NCBI GenBank assembly: GCA_030706145.1
Contig: JAUZPB010000040.1
Coordinates: forward strand, 1 to 34,949
DNA length: 34,949 nucleotides
Direction: 5' to 3'
Source: Bacteroidota bacterium
GTDB lineage: Bacteria > Bacteroidota > Ignavibacteria > Ignavibacteriales > SURF-24
Positions 4,610 to 23,276 of this stretch are shown piece by piece. Within the stretch, counting starts at the first letter, position 1; the number at the start of each line of letters is the position of its first letter. The position numbers and the translations under genes are program-made. Below the pieces are notes generated by a model. The model saw only the letters and a program-made list of their open reading frames with translations. It had not been told where the DNA came from and did no database searches.

Positions 4610-7228
4610 TTATTGTTTTGTAAATTCAAGCCGGCCTCTGTTGCCTAAGGTCACCTTTATATGCTCTCCCGGAGCTATACCATCTACAAGCATCATCTGC
4701 GAAAGAGGATTTACAAGATAATTCTGAATTGTACGCTTTAGTGGTCTTGCTCCATAGGTAACATCATAGCCCAGCTGTGAAAGCCAGTCTTTTGATTCAT
4801 CATCTACTTCTAAGATGAGGTCCTTATCAAGAAGCATCTTTCTAACCTTCTCTAGCTGAATATCGACAATCTTTCTAAGTTCTGATTTCATCAGCGGCTT
4901 AAAGAGAACAATTTCATCGATCCTGTTCAAAAATTCAGGCCTTATCTGTTTCCTCAGCATTTCAACAAGTTTAATTCTAAGGTCATCAAGTATATAAGGA
5001 ATTTTATCCTCGGAGGCATTTTCCAGCTTTTCCTGGATCAGGTGTGAGCCGAGGTTTGATGTCATAATAATAATTGTATTTTTGAAGTTAACCGTTCTTC
5101 CCTGATTATCGGTAAGACGTCCTTCATCTAAGACCTGCAGAAGAATATTAAATACATCTGGATGTGCCTTTTCGATCTCATCTAGCAAGATAACAGAATA
5201 TGGCCTCCTGCGAACAGCTTCAGTAAGCTGCCCTCCCTCTTCATAGCCAACGTATCCCGGAGGTGCGCCAATAAGTCTTGAGGTTGAGAACTTCTCCATA
5301 TACTCCGACATATCGATCCTAACCATTGCGTGCTCATCGTCAAAAAGGAATTCAGCCAAAGCTCTTGCAAGTTCTGTCTTACCTACACCTGTAGTGCCCA
5401 AGAAGATGAATGATCCTATCGGCCTATTAACATCCTGCAGTCCAGTACGCGAGCGCCTTATGGCGTTTGCAACTGCGCTTACTGCATCATCCTGCCCAAC
5501 TATCCTTCTGTGGAGTTCATCTTCCATACGAATAAGTTTACTTCTTTCGCTCTCAAGCATTCTGCTTACAGGAATACCTGTCCATTTTGCAACTACTTCT
5601 GCAATATCTTCAGCATCGACCTCTTCTTTAAGCATCCTGTGCTGCTTCTGTATCTCGGCCAAAGATTCCGATTCCTGTTTTAAGCGTTTTTCAAGAGAAG
5701 CTATTGTACCATAGCGGAGCTCTGCAACTTTTCCCAAATCACTTTCACGTTCATAGTGCTCGGCCTGTGTCCTTGCATTTTCAATATCACTTTTCATTTT
5801 TTGTATCTGCTGGATCTTATCTTTTTCAAGTTTCCAGTGACTCTTCAGAACAGTACGTTCCTCATTAAGTTCTCGTATTTCCCTGCCCAAATCCTCAAGC
5901 CTTCTTGAAGATTCAGGGTCACGTTCACGCTCTAAGGCAACTCTTTCTATTTCAAGCTGCTTAATCTTTCTTTCAACCGTATCTAATTCCTCAGGCATAG
6001 AATCAATTTCTATTCTAAGTTTAGATGCAGCTTCATCAATTAAGTCGATTGCCTTATCAGGCAGGAACCTGTCTGCTATATATCTGTTTGAAAGCTGCAC
6101 GGCAGCAACAATAGCAGCATCTGTGATTCTAACGCCGTGGTGAACCTCGTAGCGCTCCTTAAGGCCCCTTAGGATTGATATTGCATCTTCCTCGTTAGGT
6201 TCGCCAACGAGTACAGGCTGGAAACGTCTTTCGAGTGCAGCATCTTTTTCTATATGCTTCTTATATTCATCTAGTGTAGTAGCACCAATTGCATGGAGTT
6301 CACCTCTAGCTAATGCTGGCTTAAGAATATTTGCAGCATCCATAGAGCCCTGAACGGCTCCGGCACCAACAAGCGTGTGAAGCTCATCAATGAACAAGAT
6401 TATCTCGCCATTTGAATCCTGCACTTCCTTAATTACTGCCTTTAGCCTTTCCTCGAACTGTCCTCTGAACTGTGTACCAGCAACCAGGGCGCCAAGGTCA
6501 AGAGCAACGATCTTTTTTGTCTTAAGATTTTCAGGAACATCTCCGCTTACAATTCTATGTGCAATTCCCTCGGCGATTGCAGTTTTTCCAACACCTGGAT
6601 CGCCAATTAAAACCGGGTTGTTTTTCGTTCGGCGTGAAAGTACCTGTAGTACTCTTCTTATTTCTTCATCACGGCCAATTACAGGATCAAGCTTTCCTGA
6701 ACGCGCTAGTTCATTTAAGTCACGCCCATATTTTTTTAGTGACTGATATGTATCCTCTGGGTTTTGAGATGTAACTCTCTGATTTCCGCGTATATCCTTT
6801 AGAGCAGCAAGTATAGTCTCCCTGTTTACTCCATTGTCTCTTATTAGTTGTCCTGCTCTGCCCTCTGAGGAGACCATAGCGATCAAAAGGTGCTCGGTCG
6901 ATACATATTCATCTTTGAGCTGTTTTGCTTCCTCAGAGGCCTCGTCGAGCATTCTGGCGGTAGTCTGTGAGAGCTGTTGGTTACCAACGGCTGCGCCAGA
7001 GACTTTGGGAAGCTTCTGGAGCATTTCATTTATTTTAAGTTTTATATGATTAATATTAACTTCAGCTTTTTTCAGGAAAGAAACAGCAATGCTGTTGTCA
7101 TCCTGAACCATTGCAGCAAGAAGGTGTTCTGGCTCAATGATCTGATTATTGTAGCTCTGAGCGATCTCCATTGAATTTTGGATAACCTCCTGAGCTTTTA
7201 CGGTAAGTTTGTTAAAATTAAAAGCCAT
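4610..7228 (-). CDS. clpB: ATP-dependent chaperone ClpB
   Basis: ClpB is a hexameric AAA+ disaggregase that pulls proteins out of aggregates together with DnaK. The 872 residues show the Clp N domain (about 1-145), the first AAA+ module with Walker A GDPGVGKT (about 209-216) and Walker [11 protein letters not shown], the long coiled-coil M domain (about 410-530, rich in Glu/Arg), and the second module with GTTGVGKT (about 610-617) and [14 protein letters not shown]. The M domain distinguishes ClpB from ClpA and ClpC. The gene is monocistronic. GGGGG lies 13 nt before the ATG. No CIRCE element was found upstream; a TATAATTG element at 7261-7268 on the minus strand is a weak -7 candidate. Confidence 0.97.
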
Positions 7229-7374: not shown

Positions 7375-7390
7375 TGTTTCACGTGAAACA
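7375..7390. other. parS centromere site (ParB/Spo0J binding), copy 1
   Basis: TGTTTCACGTGAAACA, a perfect 16-bp palindrome that matches the conserved bacterial parS sequence. ParB loads here, spreads and, with ParA and SMC, segregates the chromosome origin. Confidence 0.93.
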
Positions 7391-7479
7391 TATATTTATG
7401 TTAAACATTAAACCCAAGCTAAACAATCCACATTCTTCGTACAAAAACAGAAGTATAAGTGACTAGGCTCAATACTCCT

Positions 7480-7519
7480 GGGAGGCAGAAAAATGTTGAA
7501 GGTCCGGATTTTGGTTTAG
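7480..7519 (+). other. Strong Shine-Dalgarno with an 8-codon ORF between two parS sites
   Basis: GGGAGG (7480-7485) lies 7 nt before an ATG (7493) that opens MLKVRILV and stops at 7519. Spacing is ideal and the signal is stronger than that of most genes nearby. It could be a leader peptide or simply chance; no downstream gene lies close enough to be an obvious target. Confidence 0.3.
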
Positions 7520-7639
7520 TGAAATTCATGTTTGTACATTTGGCCGATAATCTTTTGTAGTAAAGGTCCTTAAGTTAGTAGTTTAATTTGCACAAATTTC
7601 CAGAAGATGGCAATATTGCCTTTCAGATCTAAGTGCCTC

Positions 7640-7655
7640 TGTTTCACGTGAAACA
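7640..7655. other. parS centromere site, copy 2
   Basis: A second perfect copy of the 16-bp palindrome TGTTTCACGTGAAACA, 265 bp from copy 1 and about 150 bp ahead of mnmE. Confidence 0.93.
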
Positions 7656-7770
7656 TATTAGAGCTACTACCTTTTTTATAGAGGAATCTTTTTTAATGTG
7701 ATCAGTATGGCATTCCTGTTTACATGTTAGAAAACATGGGCTTATATGAGACTACGGGAACGGCTTTAAC

Positions 7771-7802
7771 ATTGAGTTTATAGAATTATATAACTAATTT
7801 TG
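7771..7802 (+). promoter_or_regulatory. Predicted Bacteroidota-type promoter of mnmE
   Basis: ATTG (7771-7774, three of four bases of the -33 TTTG box), a 20-bp spacer, then TAATTTTG (7795-7802), a full match to TAnnTTTG. Transcription would begin about 6-8 nt later, at or next to the ATG at 7809, which predicts a leaderless mRNA. Confidence 0.45.
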
Positions 7803-7808
7803 CATTCT

Positions 7809-9170
7809 ATGAAAAAATATGACAATGAGGATGTAATTGTTGCCCAGGCAACGCCAAATGGTGTAGGAGCAATCTCGGTTGTAAGGGTAAGCGGCCCTAA
7901 ATCTATAGAGATAGTCGACAGTGTTTTTTCGGGTAAAAAGAAGCTGATAGACTCACCGACACACACAATCCACTATGGGAATATCACAGGAGAAAATGGC
8001 CTTCTGATAGACGACGTGCTCGTTTCTGTCTTCAGGTCTCCTAACTCTTATACAGGAGAAGACAGCCTTGAGATCAGCACTCACGGCAACCCGCTTATCG
8101 TAGAAAAGCTGATAGGAAATCTACTCCGCAAAGGCATTAGACTGGCTGAGCCGGGTGAATTTACAAAGCGAGCCTTCCTTAACAACAGGCTCGATCTTAT
8201 CCAGGCAGAGGCCGTAGCGGACCTAATTAATGCCAGGACAGAAGCATCTATGCGTGGAGCCAGAAATCAGTTAGATGGACTTCTTTCCTCTAAAGTTGAC
8301 TCTCTTAGAAACAGACTCCTTAACTCTTCCTCTCTTATTGAACTGGAACTTGACTTTGCCGAGGAAGAGCTAGAGTTTATAGAAAACAGTGAACTTAGGA
8401 AAGCCATAGAAGAAATTAAGTCAGAGATAACTCTGCTTCTTAGATCCTTCTCCTTTGGTAGGGTCATCCGTGATGGAGTCAATGTTGCTCTTGTTGGGAA
8501 ACCTAACGTCGGGAAATCCTCGCTCCTTAACTACCTGCTTAAAGAGTCGAGGGCAATTGTAAGTGAGATACCAGGAACTACAAGGGATGTAATTCGTGAG
8601 GACCTGAACATAGATGGATTTCTTTTCCGCCTTTTTGATACAGCTGGACTTAGGCTTACTGAAGACAAAATTGAAAAAGAAGGTGTGCAAAGAAGCCGCC
8701 TTGCTGTAAAAGATGCCGACCTTGTGGTTTTAATTTCCGATGTGGAAACGGGCTTTTCAAAAGAATTGTTCTCTGAACTATGCACACTTACAGATGAAAA
8801 AAGAATAATAAAACTTGTTAACAAGATAGATATAAAGCACGATCCTGACCTAAAGGCAGACAGCTATGTTTCTGCAAGAACCGGAGAAGGAATAGACAAA
8901 CTCCTTGAGACACTAAAAAGTAGAGCCATGGGTGATTCCGGTTATAATGAAAAGACTGCAATTGTTACAAACATTCGCCACTACTATGCTCTTAAAAAGG
9001 CAGTAGAGTTTTTAGAGAACGCTATAATTTCTGTTTCACAGAGGTTAAGCGGCGAGTTTATTGCGGTCGACCTTAGAAATGCCATTGATAGTTTATCTGA
9101 GATAATCGGGCAGTTAACCTCGGAAGATGTGCTAAATAATATATTCTCCAGGTTCTGTATCGGGAAATAA
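7809..9170 (+). CDS. mnmE: tRNA uridine-5-carboxymethylaminomethyl modification GTPase MnmE
   Basis: With MnmG, MnmE installs the cmnm5 group on wobble U34 of certain tRNAs, using a folate-bound one-carbon unit, GTP hydrolysis and potassium. The 453 residues contain the N-terminal tetrahydrofolate-binding domain (DVIVAQATPNGVGAISVVRVSG), the helical domain, an inserted Ras-like G domain with GKPNVGKS (about 229-236), DTAG and NKID, and the C-terminal FCIGK, whose cysteine is invariant. I chose the ATG at 7809; the in-frame TTG at 7800 adds three residues but overlaps the predicted -7 element. No Shine-Dalgarno is present, in line with a leaderless start. parS sites flank it on both sides, and mnmG follows after 109 bp. 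Confidence 0.96.
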   Translation: MKKYDNEDVIVAQATPNGVGAISVVRVSGPKSIEIVDSVFSGKKKLIDSPTHTIHYGNITGENGLLIDDVLVSVFRSPNSYTGEDSLEISTHGNPLIVEKLIGNLLRKGIRLAEPGEFTKRAFLNNRLDLIQAEAVADLINARTEASMRGARNQLDGLLSSKVDSLRNRLLNSSSLIELELDFAEEELEFIENSELRKAIEEIKSEITLLLRSFSFGRVIRDGVNVALVGKPNVGKSSLLNYLLKESRAIVSEIPGTTRDVIREDLNIDGFLFRLFDTAGLRLTEDKIEKEGVQRSRLAVKDADLVVLISDVETGFSKELFSELCTLTDEKRIIKLVNKIDIKHDPDLKADSYVSARTGEGIDKLLETLKSRAMGDSGYNEKTAIVTNIRHYYALKKAVEFLENAIISVSQRLSGEFIAVDLRNAIDSLSEIIGQLTSEDVLNNIFSRFCIGK

Positions 9171-9179
9171 GATAATTGA

Positions 9180-9226
9180 CCTCCCTGCTTAAACCTAAAA
9201 GACCAGGTTTCTTTCTTTGGGGGAGG
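9180..9226 (+). promoter_or_regulatory. Nested inverted repeat that could mask a ribosome site between mnmE and mnmG
   Basis: An outer pair, CCTCCC (9180-9185) with GGGAGG (9221-9226), encloses an inner pair, AAACCT (9191-9196) with AGGTTT (9205-9210). The outer right arm is part of the strong Shine-Dalgarno GGGGGAGG (9219-9226) of an 8-codon ORF (9231-9257). It lacks a T tract, so it does not look like a simple terminator. A regulatory role is inference. Confidence 0.4.
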
Positions 9227-9230
9227 CTTA

Positions 9231-9257
9231 ATGAAAAAAGAATACTGTTTCACGTGA
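9231..9257 (+). other. 8-codon ORF (MKKEYCFT) ending inside parS copy 3, upstream of mnmG
   Basis: The ATG lies 4 nt after GGGGGAGG. The last three codons and the stop lie within the parS palindrome. It precedes the mnmG ATG (9280) by 22 nt after its own stop. It may act as a leader ORF, or be a chance product of the G-rich stem. Confidence 0.3.
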
Positions 9258-9261
9258 AACA
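9246..9261. other. parS centromere site, copy 3
   Basis: A third perfect TGTTTCACGTGAAACA, in the mnmE-mnmG gap, 18 bp before the mnmG start. A ParB complex here would sit inside an operon, so it could affect mnmG transcription. Confidence 0.93.
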
Positions 9262-9279: not shown

Positions 9280-11157
9280 ATGAAGAAATTCGATATAGTT
9301 GTAATAGGCGGAGGTCATGCTGGTGTAGAGGCCGCAGTGGCCGGAGCCAACATGGGACTCGAAGTTGCAATAGTTACAATGGAAGGCCATGCCATGGGAA
9401 GAATGTCCTGCAACCCCGCAATTGGCGGAAGTGCTAAAGGACACCTGGTTCATGAGATTGACGCCTTAGGCGGCGTTATGGGATTAATTGCCGATAGAAC
9501 AGGTATACAGTTCAGGACGCTAAATAAGTCAAAGGGACCTGCCGTATGGGCTCACCGCTGCCAGTCAGACAGAAAGCTTTACTCTGAAGAGGCTTACCGC
9601 GTGGTTTCATCTACACCAGGACTAAGCATTGTAGAAGATTCTGTTACGGAAATATTCGCAGAAAAGGGCGTCATCACTGGTGTAGGCATGCTCTCAGGTG
9701 ATCACATCGAGTGCAAGGCTGTAGTTATCTGCTCAGGTACATTCCTTAATGGTCTAATGCACACAGGATTGACATCTACAAAAGGCGGAAGATTTGGCGA
9801 AAAACCTGCAACGGGACTTACTGAATCACTTGTTAAACTAGGCTTCCATTCCGGTAGACTTAAGACGGGTACACCTCCAAGGCTCGCAAAGTCTTCAATT
9901 GACTGGGATATTCTGGAGATTCAGCCAGGAGATGACACGCCACAACCTTTTTCCTTAAGAACCGAAAAAGCTCTGTTCCCTTTTCTTCCCCAGGTACCAT
10001 GCCATATGACATATACACATATTGGTACTCACAAGATACTTGAGAAGGGCTTTTCCCGTTCACCACTTTTTACAGGTGTTATACGCGGCGTAGGACCAAG
10101 ATACTGCCCTTCCATTGAGGATAAGATCGTAAGGTTCTCAGACAAAGATCGACATCAGCTATTTCTTGAACCTGAGGGATTAGATAGTGACCTTATATAT
10201 GTAAATGGATTTTCAACTTCACTTCCAGCCGAAATACAGCTAGAAGCAATCCATTCTATAAAAGGATTGGAAAAAGCTGAGATGGTCCGCCCAGGCTACG
10301 CAGTTGAATATGACTTCTTCCCTCCTTACCAGGTGGATCTGACACTAGAGACAAAGATCGTAAAAGGACTCTATTTTGCCGGGCAGATAAACGGTACCTC
10401 GGGCTATGAGGAAGCTGCTGCTCAGGGGCTTATTGCTGGAATAAATGCTGCACTAAAGATAAAAAAAGAGGCTGAATTTGTACTGAAAAGAAGCGAGGCT
10501 TATATAGGAGTCTTAATAGACGACCTTGTAACTAAATCGACCGAAGAGCCCTACAGAATGTTTACTTCAAGAGCCGAACACAGACTTCTTCTTAGACAAG
10601 ACAACGCAGACAGGCGCCTTTTTGAATATGGCCACCGCTTTGGACTTATTTCAGATGAAATGTATAAAGAACTAAAGACCCGGGAAAAACTAATCCAGTA
10701 CAACATTGATACATTAAGAGAAAAGAAGCTGCATGCAAGGCAGGTTAATCCCCTTCTTGAGAGTTTTAACATCTCACCTATAGATTCTACAGAGACAATT
10801 GCAAAGCTGTGTAAACGTCCTGAACTTCAGCTTACAACTTTGCTTCATCTGATCCCTGAGGAGGAAAGAAACGGCATTGGAGAGCTAATGGAAAACCCAG
10901 TAGCATTAGAACAGGTTGAGATAGAACTAAAGTACGAAGGCTACATCAAGCGCCAGCAGGAACTGATTGAAAAGCTTGAAAAATATGAAGACGTTCAGAT
11001 ACCTCTTAACTTTAACTACACAGAGGCAAAATCGCTTTCCTCTGAATCAAGGGAAAAATTAAATAAGTTTAAGCCAAGGTCAATTGGTCAGGCTTCCAGA
11101 ATTTCAGGAGTTACCCCTTCGGATATTTCAATTTTATTAGTATATTTGAAGTCCTGA
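9280..11157 (+). CDS. mnmG: tRNA uridine-5-carboxymethylaminomethyl modification enzyme MnmG (GidA)
   Basis: MnmG is the FAD- and NADH-using partner of MnmE in U34 modification. The 625-residue length is standard. The FAD-binding [10 protein letters not shown] is at residues 10-19, followed by the GidA signatures [20 protein letters not shown] and [21 protein letters not shown], and the C-terminal helical domain that contacts MnmE and tRNA (ending [19 protein letters not shown]). AAGG lies 7 nt before the ATG, a weak ribosome site compared with the one upstream at 9219. It is followed after 22 bp by rsmG, the usual gene order. Identification is secure. Confidence 0.97.
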
Positions 11158-11179: not shown

Positions 11180-11860
11180 GTGGATAAGCAAGACCAGTAT
11201 CTTCAAGAATTAACCGACTTCTTCCGGGAAAACGGCTGTAGCCCGGATGAATATCAGCTCGAACGACTGGCTAATTATGCAGCATTGGTTGTTGAGAAGA
11301 ATCAAATTGTAAATCTCGTCTCAAGAAAAGATGTAGATGCAGTTGTAGAGAATCATGTATTCATATCAGCCTTCATATCACGGTTCATTCAGGAAAAATA
11401 TCAGAAATTTATTGACATAGGCACTGGCGGTGGATTCCCAGGAATTCCATTTGCCATATTAAGACCCTTCATGAAAGGAGTGCTTGTAGATTCAACTCAG
11501 AAGAAAATAAATGCAGTAAATGAATTCATAAACAAACTAAAGCTTAGCAACATAAAAGCAGAAAGCCAAAGGGTTGAAGATCCAGGATTCATAGAAAAGT
11601 ATCGCTCAGAGTTTGACCTTGTTCTAAGCCGTGCTACCGTCCCACTTGTTATGCTTCTAAGATATGCCCTGCCACTAATAAAAGACAGGTCATGCATTGC
11701 TACTATAAAAGGCGGGGACCTGCAAGAGGAAATAAAACAAGCAGAACTCAAATACAGGCATTATATTAAAAAACTGACAGTCTTTGAATTAAACTACAAG
11801 CCAACGAATACAAGGAATGAAAAGGAAAAAAAACTAATAATACTGGAAATACTTAAATGA
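11180..11860 (+). CDS. rsmG: 16S rRNA (guanine527-N7)-methyltransferase RsmG
   Basis: RsmG (GidB) methylates N7 of G527 in 16S rRNA using SAM; its loss gives low-level streptomycin resistance in many bacteria. The 226 residues have the SAM-binding motif FIDIGTGGGFPGIPFAI near residue 75 and the family segment FDLVLSRATVPL. The start is GTG, supported by GGGAG at proper spacing (11171-11175). It overlaps murQ by 4 bp (ATGA), so the two are probably translationally coupled. In many genomes rsmG is followed by parA-parB; here it is not, although parS sites lie nearby. Confidence 0.95.
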   Translation: MDKQDQYLQELTDFFRENGCSPDEYQLERLANYAALVVEKNQIVNLVSRKDVDAVVENHVFISAFISRFIQEKYQKFIDIGTGGGFPGIPFAILRPFMKGVLVDSTQKKINAVNEFINKLKLSNIKAESQRVEDPGFIEKYRSEFDLVLSRATVPLVMLLRYALPLIKDRSCIATIKGGDLQEEIKQAELKYRHYIKKLTVFELNYKPTNTRNEKEKKLIILEILK

Positions 11861-12789
11861 GTCAAACTGATACTAAAAAGCTTTTCGCTGAAATCGCTAA
11901 TTTAACTACAGAACAGAGAAACCCTAATTCTATGGATATAGATGCCAGAAATACGGCTGAGATCCTTCAGATAATTAATAACGAAGATAAGAAAGTCCCT
12001 TTAGCTGTTGAAAAAGAACTCCCATACATTGAGCAGGCAGTCGAAGTAATAGTAAAGGCACTAAAAGAAGGAGGAAGACTCCTTTATTTCGGAGCCGGTA
12101 CTAGCGGCAGGCTCGGTGTAGTAGATGCTTCTGAATGCCCTCCTACTTTCGGAACTCCATTTGGCATGATCGATGGATTTATTGCCGGAGGACGCGAGGC
12201 TATGTTCCGCGCTCAGGAAGGAGCCGAGGACTATGAAGAAAATGGCGCTAATGATGTACTAAAGGCTAACGTAACTGAAAAAGACGTCGTATGCGGTATT
12301 GCTGCCAGCAGACGTACTCCTTATGTTGTAGGTGCTGTAAAAAAAGCAAAAGAACTTGGAGCAAAGACTCTCTATGTTACTTGTAATCCAAGAGAGAACT
12401 TCGACATAAAAGAGGTAGATATTGCTATGTGCCCTTATGTTGGACCTGAAGTAATTATGGGTTCAACAAGAATGAAAAGCGGTACAGCACAGAAACTCGT
12501 TCTTAATATGCTTACTACTGCCTCAATGATAAAAATGGGCAAGGTCTACGAAAATATGATGATAGACCTGCAGATGACTAACAAGAAACTCGTTGAACGC
12601 TCAAAGAAAATCGTTATGACAATTACAGGCATTTCTTACGACGAGGCAGCTCAGTATCTTGAAAAAGCAGGCGGTCATGTTAAGACAGCTCTTGTGATGA
12701 TAAAGGCAAATGTCAGCACGGAAGATGCTAAAATAAGACTTGAAAAAGCAGATGGCTTTGTAAGACGGGCAATTGAAGGGAAGTTCTGA
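11857..12789 (+). CDS. murQ: N-acetylmuramic acid 6-phosphate etherase MurQ
   Basis: MurQ cleaves the lactyl ether of MurNAc-6-phosphate to give GlcNAc-6-phosphate and D-lactate during recycling of peptidoglycan. The 310-residue protein has the SIS sugar-phosphate domain with GAGTSGRLGVVDASECPPTFG (residues about 78-98) and, later, GSTRMKSGTAQKLVLNM, both diagnostic of the family, plus the C-terminal UBA-like helical region (GGHVKTALVM). The start overlaps the rsmG stop. No MurNAc transporter or AnmK kinase is adjacent, so its substrate supply must come from genes elsewhere. A terminator follows at about 12841. Confidence 0.95.
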   Translation: MSQTDTKKLFAEIANLTTEQRNPNSMDIDARNTAEILQIINNEDKKVPLAVEKELPYIEQAVEVIVKALKEGGRLLYFGAGTSGRLGVVDASECPPTFGTPFGMIDGFIAGGREAMFRAQEGAEDYEENGANDVLKANVTEKDVVCGIAASRRTPYVVGAVKKAKELGAKTLYVTCNPRENFDIKEVDIAMCPYVGPEVIMGSTRMKSGTAQKLVLNMLTTASMIKMGKVYENMMIDLQMTNKKLVERSKKIVMTITGISYDEAAQYLEKAGGHVKTALVMIKANVSTEDAKIRLEKADGFVRRAIEGKF

Positions 12790-18563: not shown

Positions 18564-20474
18564 TTATTTCAGGTATAACATTTTGTGAGTCTGGCTTTGA
18601 CCTGCAGCCTTTATTGTGTAGAAATATATTCCGCTAGACAAAGAAACCTCAGACCCTGTCTTTGGAAAAGTTACTTCATGCATACCCTGGGACTGCTCCT
18701 CATCAACAAGAGATGCGACTTCCTTTCCAAGAGGGTCGTATACTTTTAACGAGACAAAGCACGCAGCCGGAATATTATATTTTATAACAGTGGCAGGATT
18801 AAAAGGATTTGGATAGTTCTGAAAAAGTTCAAATTTATCAGCTCTGGATATTTTTTCATCTACACCAACGTAATGAATATTACCATATGTGGTACCACCT
18901 ACCGAGCAGCCCTCGAGTGTATAAATGGCACTTCCGGAAACCTTTATATTTTCTATATGGGATACACCTATTCCCTGGAGCAAATCATATTTCCATGAAA
19001 CTAGAGAGTCACTTTCAAAATGCTTTCTTGCATATGAAGCATCCCAGTATTTAATCATATCGTCATTTTTAAGTACCGTTTTAAGTGGGCCACTATAATT
19101 AAACCTGTAAGACAAAACTGTATCCCCCATGTCAGCAAAAAGGTCATCTACTAAATATTCACCACTCTTATCACTAATGTACCTGAATATCTTTGCTTCA
19201 ATTGAATCAATTCTTTCATAAAACATGGTATATGTCTTTGCAGGATAAGGCCCGGTTTCTCTTATGACAAAATATTTCTTCCCATTTTGCATTGTAGTAT
19301 CGCCGCTAACCTCTCTTATCATCGTAGAATTAAATGCTGGCTGATTTGCTGTGGAATCCTTAAAGGAATAGATCCATTTATTGCCAATAGCTAAAGGATA
19401 ATAGCTTGTTAGCCCTTCCGGGGCATAAAGAATTTTCAAGGTTTTTACAGAAGAAGAAGGAGTAACTTCAAAAATGCCATTTCTTGTGGCAGCATAAACT
19501 ATATCTTTTCCTGGCTTTGCATATATCCCTATTATATCTTTATCCAGGCTTCCGAATGGCTTGAAACTACAGCCAAAGTCTTCAGAAAACAAAATGTCAG
19601 ATCCATCTGCAAGATATATTCTGCCTGACCTTTTTGTATCTACACTCTCTTTTAGATTAGCCTTTCCTGTGAAGACCTTTACAAAACTGCCGGGCTTCCC
19701 AGAGCAGGGAGAAACATACAGGCAATTACGTACAGTCCAGTATATGTGAGAGGAATCTTTATCAAAAAAGAAATTCAAGAGGTTATAATATGAGGAATAA
19801 CCATCATTGTGTACTGAATCTGCTATATCAGTAGTCTTTCCACCATCAGATGATCTTAAAAGATAACCTCTATTTGATAAGCCAAAAATAAGAGAGTCGT
19901 TAAAAGGACTTAAAGAGAGAAGACGAAAATTATTTGAAGTTATTGACCAGTTATCTCCCCCGTCAGTACTTTTAAAAAGATAACTATTTGTGGAATAAAA
20001 CAGCAAGCTGTCATTTTGCTTTGATATTTCAACATTCATAACACCACCCAAACCTCTTGCCAGCAGAGGTCTGTCATAGCGTTCAAGAAGTGGACTCGGA
20101 TCCATTCCTGAAGATGTCCCACAGAAAATATACTTTGAAGGATCGTTATTCCAGAACTCAAAGTCTTGTATTGAGCGCCCTGTACAATAAAAAGGATATG
20201 CATCGCAGCTATAGCCGGCATATAAAAACGGAGTAACTATATTTTTTGAAATATCATAATTAAATATAGTTACAATTGAATTATCATCAGGATATTTGGG
20301 GTTCTTATAGGCCTCATATAGCGTATAAAACAGGTGTGTATTCTGATCTTTGTCCTCCATACCCCTAAGATCTGAATAGCGCGAAACATATGGAGACTGC
20401 GCATAGACTAAAGAAATTGAAAAAATTTCTCCAAAGAGAATAAGTAAACCAAATAGTACAACTACTCTTCTCAT
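18564..20474 (-). CDS. Secreted protein with BNR/YCF48-like motifs and a T9SS type A sorting domain
   Basis: This 636-residue protein has a Sec signal peptide (MRRVVVLFGLLILFGEIFSISLVYAQS) and a C-terminal sorting domain of about 80 residues: YPNPFNPATVIKYNIP, then KVYDPLGKEVASLV, SGIYFYTI and a final KMLYLK. The body contains Asp-box-like turns (STDGGDNWSIT, SSDGGKT) seen in beta-propellers with BNR or YCF48-type repeats, consistent with a beta-propeller. The T9SS would carry it across the outer membrane and anchor or release it. No enzymatic site was recognised. AAGG precedes the ATG. It lies downstream of another T9SS protein on the same strand, 93 bp away. Confidence 0.82.
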   Translation of the reverse strand: MRRVVVLFGLLILFGEIFSISLVYAQSPYVSRYSDLRGMEDKDQNTHLFYTLYEAYKNPKYPDDNSIVTIFNYDISKNIVTPFLYAGYSCDAYPFYCTGRSIQDFEFWNNDPSKYIFCGTSSGMDPSPLLERYDRPLLARGLGGVMNVEISKQNDSLLFYSTNSYLFKSTDGGDNWSITSNNFRLLSLSPFNDSLIFGLSNRGYLLRSSDGGKTTDIADSVHNDGYSSYYNLLNFFFDKDSSHIYWTVRNCLYVSPCSGKPGSFVKVFTGKANLKESVDTKRSGRIYLADGSDILFSEDFGCSFKPFGSLDKDIIGIYAKPGKDIVYAATRNGIFEVTPSSSVKTLKILYAPEGLTSYYPLAIGNKWIYSFKDSTANQPAFNSTMIREVSGDTTMQNGKKYFVIRETGPYPAKTYTMFYERIDSIEAKIFRYISDKSGEYLVDDLFADMGDTVLSYRFNYSGPLKTVLKNDDMIKYWDASYARKHFESDSLVSWKYDLLQGIGVSHIENIKVSGSAIYTLEGCSVGGTTYGNIHYVGVDEKISRADKFELFQNYPNPFNPATVIKYNIPAACFVSLKVYDPLGKEVASLVDEEQSQGMHEVTFPKTGSEVSLSSGIYFYTIKAAGQSQTHKMLYLK

Positions 20475-20567: not shown

Positions 20568-23156
20568 TTATTTTATCAGGCTCATTTTACCCGAAATGCT
20601 TTTAGCTCCAAGCCTTAAATTGTAGAAATATACTCCGCTTGGCACAACGCTGCCAGAGGCATTCATACCATCCCATCTTGTAAGATAAGTACCGGAAGCC
20701 AGATTTTCATCCAGTAGTTCTCTTATTACCTCACCCTGTATGTTATAAATGGTTAATTTTGCCCTCTGGAATGAAAGGTCATATGGAACTGTGAACTTTA
20801 TGACAGTCGAGGCGTTAAAAGGATTTGGATAATTGCCCCAAAGCATCATAGATTCAGGCAAAGAAGGTTTATTCTTCCCCTTATCATCTTCTATAGAAGT
20901 AATAAGCATAGCTCCCTGGCCTTTAAGGGCCCCCTTATTGTCTGCAAGATAAGAATTAGTAAAGTTTGGCCGAATATATGTTTCGGCATTAGTCCAAAAT
21001 GCACTTGACCATTCCTGATCGGTCAACCTTTTGAAATTTGTTGTAACATTCTCATAGTAGCTCATTACAGGTCCAACGCAGGCTAATGTCTTGTTGTTAT
21101 CTCCTGTAGGGACAAGAAATACTCCAAGGTTAACCGGACCTGTTCCCACATGCATTACCCAGCCGACCGTATTACCTGATGCATCTGTTGGTGACGTATG
21201 CACATCAGCAATAACATAATCCATTTCTGTCGAAAGCGTTGTGGAAGTATAGATCAGTTTTAAATACCATCCATTATATTTAGGCTCCCCACAACCTACA
21301 CTATAATATGAAAGGACACTTTTTATAAATGTCTTTTCTTTTTCACTTAATGCTGCCCCTTCAAGCTCTTTTTGAGAAATAGATGCAAGTGTATCACTGA
21401 CAGAAGAAAGGTAGGCGAAATAATTAGCTACTGAAGATGCTTTATCATAGGAACTGCTGGCTGCAAACTTTGCAAAATATTCTTTTGCCCTTAAGGCAAA
21501 GGAGCTTATTTGTTTATAAAAATCGGTAAAAGGCTCTACATAGCCACTAGGATAAGAGCATGTAACTGTACCCGAATATGACTGTTTTGCATATAGAAGG
21601 TTATCATGCCTTAGCTGTGCCCATGAAGCTAGCTGCGTATTCATCTTCTCCTGCCAGAAAGATGCTGTCTGCATAAATAAAGGCAGCTTTGTCCTGTCTT
21701 CAGGAGGGTTTAATTTTCTTATTGAATTAAGCCACATGTTATAGATCGTAAGATTCCAGAACTCATCTCCATATGAATCGACCAGATATCTTAGGGCTGC
21801 AAGATTGCTTCCATAATGATATTCATCGAGCTCTTTTTTTAATATCTGAGCCGAAGCATTATTGCCAAGGGCAAAAAGTACATCCTGACCAGATGGGAGC
21901 ATCCTTTTTATGTTTAGTCCATTATATCTTATCTTGTCAAAGACAACCTGGCCTGTTACGTAGGAATCAATAATGAACCTCTGCCCGAAAAGCATAAATG
22001 CAGAGGCTGGAATAATGCTGTCAGGTGAGTTAAAGCCCGTCTCAATTATCTGAGAGAGTATCCTCTGAAAAGCATAGGACTTTGTTAAAAGTGTATTTCT
22101 GAAATTCTTAAACGCCGCAGTATCGAGCAATTGACTGGCTTGTGTAATATTAAGCTCTGAGGTCAAAGACTTCATGTTTTCCAAAGTAACATTATCTGAT
22201 TCACCGACAAAGAACTGCAAAATGCCATTTATATCCTTGTAGAGCTGCATGGAGTTCGATTTTTGGATGGCCTCTAAGACCAAAGAAGCCAGAATTGTCT
22301 GTCGCTGAATATCATTTTCTGTAGGTCTTGGCATAAGTGCTCTTGGAGCAGAAAGATATATTTCAGTTCTTCCAAACCACATCATAGCCTTAAAATACTT
22401 TGCAAGCATTGGCTGAAGCTCATCTGCATAATGGCCGCGCACGGTAAACTGACTGAAATCCATAGCTCTAAGGGTTTCTGAAAATAGAGCTACACTTTGC
22501 GGAGAAGCACTATTTATATAGCTTATAATATCTGAAACAGTAGCTGCATTTGAGCTATAATAGGGCGTGCTAGTTTCATCTAAAAGTTTTCTTGCAACTG
22601 TAATATAAAGGTCAAGGTCCTTAAGTTTTAATTCCATATTAGTGTCTGACTTATATTCCAAGGCAAGAAGAGGCACCTGCGACTGCATTTTTTGAAGCAG
22701 TTCTGTAAGTTTTGGTATTAAGACACCAAGTTCAATATCCTTTAGTATCTTATCATATGAGCGGTGAACGGCATCAAGTATTGCATCTGTTGAAATAAAA
22801 ACAGGAAGGTCATTATAATAGACATTTGAAAAGGCCAACTTAACATTACTAAACTTCAGCCTTTCAGTGACCATAAAGCCATTGTTTTCAAGAAGCGATA
22901 TTTCATCATTAGTCAATTTAAGCTTTATTCTGACAGAATCATTGTAATCGGCTAAGGAGAATTTTGAGTTGATGTTTCCCTTAAAAATTCCTGAAGAGTG
23001 GAGTGAATACAACTGCTCAGTGGTCAAATTCGCATTCGATGAGAGGAAATTCTTATAGGTCTGAAGGTCAAAGTTGTCATTCTGTGCCAGGGTAACTCTA
23101 CCCGTAATAAAAAGCAACAAGATGAAAGACAGCCAGAGTTTAGAAAAATTCTGCAT
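20568..23156 (-). CDS. Secreted DUF3160 family protein with a T9SS sorting domain
   Basis: The 862-residue product has a Sec signal (MQNFSKLWLSFILLLFITGRVTLAQ), a DUF3160-like body (NGFMVTERLKFSNV...DLPVFISTDAILDAVHRSYDKIL, then a long helical region and QTASFWQEKMNTQLASWAQLRHDNLLY) and a C-terminal T9SS domain beginning YPNPFNASTVIKFTVP and ending GKMSLIK. DUF3160 has no established function. I chose the ATG at 23156 since it begins the signal peptide and GAGG lies upstream; the longer frame adds 23 residues of unlikely sequence. The protein should reach the cell surface. A weak GACCTG/CAGGTC inverted repeat (20530-20562) follows the stop. It lies next to another T9SS cargo gene and downstream of the aspartase. 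Confidence 0.8.
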   Translation of the reverse strand: MQNFSKLWLSFILLLFITGRVTLAQNDNFDLQTYKNFLSSNANLTTEQLYSLHSSGIFKGNINSKFSLADYNDSVRIKLKLTNDEISLLENNGFMVTERLKFSNVKLAFSNVYYNDLPVFISTDAILDAVHRSYDKILKDIELGVLIPKLTELLQKMQSQVPLLALEYKSDTNMELKLKDLDLYITVARKLLDETSTPYYSSNAATVSDIISYINSASPQSVALFSETLRAMDFSQFTVRGHYADELQPMLAKYFKAMMWFGRTEIYLSAPRALMPRPTENDIQRQTILASLVLEAIQKSNSMQLYKDINGILQFFVGESDNVTLENMKSLTSELNITQASQLLDTAAFKNFRNTLLTKSYAFQRILSQIIETGFNSPDSIIPASAFMLFGQRFIIDSYVTGQVVFDKIRYNGLNIKRMLPSGQDVLFALGNNASAQILKKELDEYHYGSNLAALRYLVDSYGDEFWNLTIYNMWLNSIRKLNPPEDRTKLPLFMQTASFWQEKMNTQLASWAQLRHDNLLYAKQSYSGTVTCSYPSGYVEPFTDFYKQISSFALRAKEYFAKFAASSSYDKASSVANYFAYLSSVSDTLASISQKELEGAALSEKEKTFIKSVLSYYSVGCGEPKYNGWYLKLIYTSTTLSTEMDYVIADVHTSPTDASGNTVGWVMHVGTGPVNLGVFLVPTGDNNKTLACVGPVMSYYENVTTNFKRLTDQEWSSAFWTNAETYIRPNFTNSYLADNKGALKGQGAMLITSIEDDKGKNKPSLPESMMLWGNYPNPFNASTVIKFTVPYDLSFQRAKLTIYNIQGEVIRELLDENLASGTYLTRWDGMNASGSVVPSGVYFYNLRLGAKSISGKMSLIK

Positions 23157-23223
23157 TCCATACCTCGCACATTTAATATAATGCAAAGTAGAAATTTTGT
23201 CTTTTATTATCAAGGGAAAGTAC

Positions 23224-23276
23224 AATATTCATTACCCCGGCCTTTTATAATAAATTGGCCGGGAATAATGAATATT
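23224..23276 (-). terminator. Long hairpin after the aspartase gene
   Basis: AATATTCATTA (23224-23234) pairs with TAATGAATATT (23266-23276), and the inner CCCGGCC (23236-23242) with GGCCGGG (23257-23263): 18 paired bases and a 14-nt loop. No T tract follows on the minus strand, so it may instead be an mRNA 3'-end stabiliser. Confidence 0.55.

Follow-up and report, generated by a model that had tools for sequence, protein, structure and literature searches.

Three identical palindromes around mnmE in a draft Ignavibacteriales genome very probably constitute a chromosomal parS cluster that is loaded by ParB encoded elsewhere, with parAB having left an ancestral cluster and now being located on the terminus side of the chromosome. 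The sites were found in a contig of 34,949 nucleotides, analyzed over its whole length and here called the window. The palindrome, TGTTTCACGTGAAACA, is the standard bacterial parS 16-mer, and the initial annotation had reported three perfect copies of it and no other in the window, which a re-scan allowing up to three mismatches confirmed at the positions given in Table 1. Copies 1 and 2 both lie inside the 571-bp intergenic region between the divergent clpB and mnmE genes, with copy 2 probably occupying the slot of the upstream site found in family members G001–G004, while copy 3 holds a spacer position that is kept as a parS slot across the order, and its earlier placement 18 bp before mnmG agreed with the ATG of that gene. 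In 100 dinucleotide shuffles of the window the mean number of parS matches was 0.29, and three were never reached. The copies are clustered within 1.9 kb rather than scattered over the genome, as a scan of the complete draft assembly (5,335,520 bases, or 5.34 Mb, in 345 contigs) with up to two mismatches gave no match outside the three, so that the scattering raised as a concern in the initial annotation was not seen.

Table 1. Positions of the parS copies and neighboring genes in the window.
Feature	Coordinates	Strand	Basis and remarks
clpB	4610..7228	-	Pfam; divergent neighbor; adjoins in G001, G003 and G004 (synteny)
parS copy 1	7375..7390	.	Perfect 16-bp palindrome; in the intergenic region between clpB and mnmE, 146 bp upstream of clpB
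parS copy 2	7640..7655	.	Perfect palindrome; probable mnmE ATG (7809) about 150 bp downstream
mnmE (tRNA-modification GTPase)	7800..9170	+	Pfam MnmE_helical, TrmE_N; ATG probably at 7809
parS copy 3	9246..9261	.	Perfect palindrome; mnmE-mnmG spacer; ends 18 bp before the mnmG ATG (9280)
mnmG (gidA; tRNA modification)	9280..11157	+	Pfam GIDA, E=1e-157
rsmG (gidB)	11180..11860	+	Pfam GidB
murQ-like SIS-domain protein	11857..12789	+	Pfam SIS/GKRP; occupies the place where parA often comes after rsmG; relatives share this order

The earlier observation that murQ follows rsmG in place of parA-parB was upheld by the Pfam matches, and neither parA nor parB is among the open reading frames identified there. 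A search of the window for Rfam families and tRNAs likewise found none. Further along, a DUF3160 protein (20568-23225, minus strand) carries a C-terminal domain resembling FlgD_ig and secretion-sorting domains, and its neighbor (18564-20474, minus strand) has a similar C-terminal domain.

An intact parA-parB operon, encoding a ParA of 264 aa and a ParB of 323 aa and followed by a DUF5683 gene, was instead found on contig C124 (L005), which thus supplies the ParB homologue that the initial annotation had proposed to look for. This ParB has the ParB_N, HTH_ParB and ParB_C domains, the last being the dimerisation domain, together with the motifs LGRGLEALI at the N-terminus and GERR. In a phmmer alignment with Noc (7nfu), GKDRTTITNSIRLLKLP...ISAGHARA of the query was matched to GKGQSTIANKLRLLKLP...ITERHARA of Noc, the C124 protein having R and G at the residues aligned with the Noc specificity positions 173 and 201, which are Q and R in Noc. 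At these positions R/G defines the parS type and Q/R the NBS type (PMC7383237), and the C124 ParB should therefore, judged by its sequence, recognise parS rather than NBS. The parS reading of the palindromes is accordingly supported by the canonical 16-mer, by the lack of scattered copies and by the presence of a ParB with parS-type residues in the same genome. The genome also holds a second, divergent parA-parB pair on contig C28 (L092:6683-8318), with genes for a histidine kinase and a sigma-54 response regulator as neighbors. Its ParB is about 42% identical to that of C124, with no ParB_C domain detected, and this second pair could conceivably either compete with the C124 ParAB or use a separate site of its own.

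To compare the layout across the order we used 28 relatives (Ignavibacteriales-like) having a full mnmE, counting sequences with at most three mismatches as parS-like. At least one such site lay within 1.5 kb of mnmE in 27 of the 28, and 26 had two or more. The density near mnmE was 55 sites in 119 kb, as compared with 16 sites in 2.09 Mb of background sequence from that group, every one of these 16 having at least two mismatches. T4, C6, A7, G11 and A13 were present in all 55 sites near mnmE, with the end bases being variable. In the family of the window genome (G000–G004), one site precedes mnmE and another lies in the spacer, the window genome having an extra upstream copy, and in most genomes of families f2 and f3 both sites lie within the mnmE-mnmG spacer at varying distances. 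The exception is G026, with two sites beside mnmG and mnmE 24 kb away. In a search with MnmE, the closest named relatives were MAGs of Ignavibacteria and Bacteroidetes. A third perfect parS was also seen in G003, on a separate contig (C36 of G003, L099:9848) between two small open reading frames of 144 and 132 aa; two open reading frames near this site gave no Pfam match.

The gene order rsmG-murQ is common to other Ignavibacteria MAGs and to a KSB1 MAG, and the change is therefore old. That KSB1 MAG (L119) has the order mnmE-parS-mnmG-parS-rsmG-murQ, while a deltaproteobacterial MAG (L184) keeps mnmE-parS-mnmG-parS-parA-parB, and many Firmicutes loci from the same search still have parAB after rsmG with parS beside. 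All 38 chromosomal parB loci examined had parA adjacent to parB, and they gave a single weak parS-like match. The two genes were adjacent at this locus in each of the 30 order genomes of the first search, where no parS-like site was found within about 1.5 kb of it. On the simplest reading, the parS slot is old, and parAB departed early while parS remained. Of the layout described as unusual in the initial annotation, the absence of parAB after rsmG stands, but it is no local oddity, since the parS-mnmE-mnmG layout is found throughout the order and rsmG-murQ also in other Ignavibacteria and KSB1. The suggestion that either parAB had moved or the sites had been kept during a rearrangement likewise agrees with parAB being encoded elsewhere in the genome, the change being both old and order-wide.

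With regard to the chromosomal position of parAB, parS and parB were separated in six complete genomes of the order by 0.414, 0.464, 0.465, 0.466, 0.493 and 0.499 of the chromosome, measured around the circle. Under uniform and independent positions, six values of 0.414 or more would arise with a probability of 2.6e-5, a figure that overstates the case because the genomes are related. In 13 other complete Bacteroidota in which parS was found, the distance ranged from 0.11 to 0.47, with some chromosome lengths rounded to 0.1 Mb, and was not different from uniform, whereby we rejected a terminus position of parAB as a phylum-wide trait. The two groups differed with Mann-Whitney p = 0.0014, again overstated by the kinship of the genomes. 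Separation of parS from parAB is thus general in the phylum sample, and the far-side location of parAB is a feature of the order. As the two are apart at varied distances in other Bacteroidota too, it was probably parS that stayed near the origin and parAB that moved. That the order actively keeps parAB at the terminus opposite parS, so that the partition proteins would be encoded by the part of the chromosome that is replicated last, the position mattering for ParA/ParB dosage or cell-cycle timing and not reflecting drift, is a tentative idea that we consider rather unlikely. A single old parAB position, inherited and kept by origin-symmetric inversions, would also give the same far-side pattern. 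The parABS system itself is already known, and no description of far-side parAB in this order was found in the literature searched, which did not extend to the parS survey of Livny et al. (2007).

The initial annotation had placed parS on the origin side of the chromosome, and this was borne out in relatives, as dnaA and mnmE are about 13-24 kb apart in G003, G004, G016, G018, G020 and G021. In G003 and G004, where the distance is about 13 kb, dnaA has DnaA-box clusters on both sides. The same weak parS-like site, TTTTTAACGTGAAACC (three mismatches), precedes dnaA by about 280 bp in both these genomes (L096:4074 and L098:7405). In the window genome dnaA is located on contig C36, again flanked by DnaA-box clusters, and in this draft assembly the window contig is joined neither to that contig nor to C124 with parAB. 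A search of the window for a DnaA-box cluster found none, and an origin at the parS locus itself was rejected in view of this result and of the clusters flanking dnaA on C36 and in G003 and G004. Since the DnaA boxes cluster by dnaA with none in the window, oriC is probably found next to dnaA on another contig, near the parS sites but not at them, and by analogy with the relatives the window contig would lie near the origin also in this draft genome.

GC skew within the window largely tracks gene strand and is uninformative for the origin. The initial annotation had suggested computing skew; among the relatives sampled only G026 gave a clear signal, its minimum falling at parS, while for G006, G020 and G024 the sampled values were too noisy for placing origin or terminus. 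Up to about 635 kb the sampled skew of G026 was mostly negative, from there to about 2.73 Mb mostly positive, and beyond that negative, with a minimum at about 640 kb. In the best two-switch fit to the sampled windows, one switch fell at the window with parS (642.8-642.9 kb) and the other at that with parB (2.745 Mb), the distance from parS to parAB being 2.1 Mb. In this genome dnaA, at 1.199 Mb, is 557 kb away from both parS and the skew minimum, and it is therefore a poor origin marker there.

We considered whether the palindromes could mainly be operators, at which ParB or another palindrome-binding regulator controls transcription of mnmE, mnmG and clpB, with segregation being secondary. 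In favor of this, the copies occupy promoter or spacer positions, with copy 3 shortly before the start of mnmG, and ParB at intergenic parS represses nearby genes in P. aeruginosa, according to a review (PMC7022226). However, what is repeated here is the canonical parS 16-mer, for which the genome encodes a cognate ParB, and no constant distance to start codons is kept, considering the varying distances of most f2 and f3 sites in the mnmE-mnmG spacer, the site upstream of mnmE in f1 and the sites that accompany mnmG in G026 despite the distant mnmE. Promoter-like matches in the region were moreover near chance level, for which reason an operator-only reading was judged weak, and we regard control of these genes as an improbable main role of the sites.

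It could also be argued, from the distance to parAB and from the second ParAB set in the genome, that segregation is now performed by another system and that parS persists only by descent. Relics would, however, decay evenly, whereas the core of the 55 sites in relatives is invariant while the end bases drift. Three perfect copies in the window, intact parAB in every order genome searched first and the parS-type residues of the window genome's own ParB also speak against such persistence, which we hold to be very unlikely. An origin of the sites in chance or in misassembly, for which one might point to the 345 contigs of the draft, has a negligible probability, as no shuffle gave three copies, none were found elsewhere in the genome and the same layout recurs in independent assemblies including complete chromosomes; the comparative data had in effect already refuted it.

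A parS cluster served by distant parAB resembles the Bacillus/Clostridium-type ParABS (soj-spo0J beside rsmG) in having the same 16-bp parS, canonical ParA and ParB domains and origin-side sites near mnmE-mnmG-rsmG. In that type, however, parAB comes after rsmG, with parS found within or next to it, whereas parAB of the window genome is on another contig and that of complete relatives on the far side of the chromosome. An excerpt of a study of gut bacteria (PMC10197239) describes parS clusters as marking the origin and dnaA as not always doing so; the gut Bacteroidetes clusters, as given there, coincide with the skew-defined origin but not necessarily with dnaA, matching what was seen in G026. 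The excerpt takes up neither the location of parAB nor a parS slot between mnmE and mnmG. With the Noc/NBS system there is a shared protein family, and Noc gave the best PDB matches of the C124 ParB by E-value, but the sites in the window are parS and not NBS, they are clustered rather than genome-wide and residues 173/201 are R/G and not Q/R.

Taken as a parS cluster with parAB at a distance, the system would function as follows. ParB from the distant parA-parB operon would load onto the three parS sites as a CTP-dependent clamp and spread across the clpB-mnmE-mnmG region, whereupon ParA would move the origin-proximal ParB-parS complexes apart after replication. With parS bound to stay in cis near the origin and parAB acting in trans, the latter would be free to move. 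An ancestral mnmE-parS-mnmG-rsmG-parAB cluster probably lost parAB early, with murQ now coming after rsmG, parS unmoved and parAB ending up on the terminus side in this order. We infer ParB binding, the segregation function and this order of evolutionary events from the comparisons made here.

The findings separate two usually joined things, a cis-acting centromere near the origin beside mnmE-mnmG and a trans-acting parAB that is able to sit elsewhere. In draft Ignavibacteriales genomes the origin region can be recognized by its parS sites, which in G026 at least mark it better than dnaA does. The far-side parAB in all six complete genomes of the order makes a testable case for an effect of gene position on ParABS.
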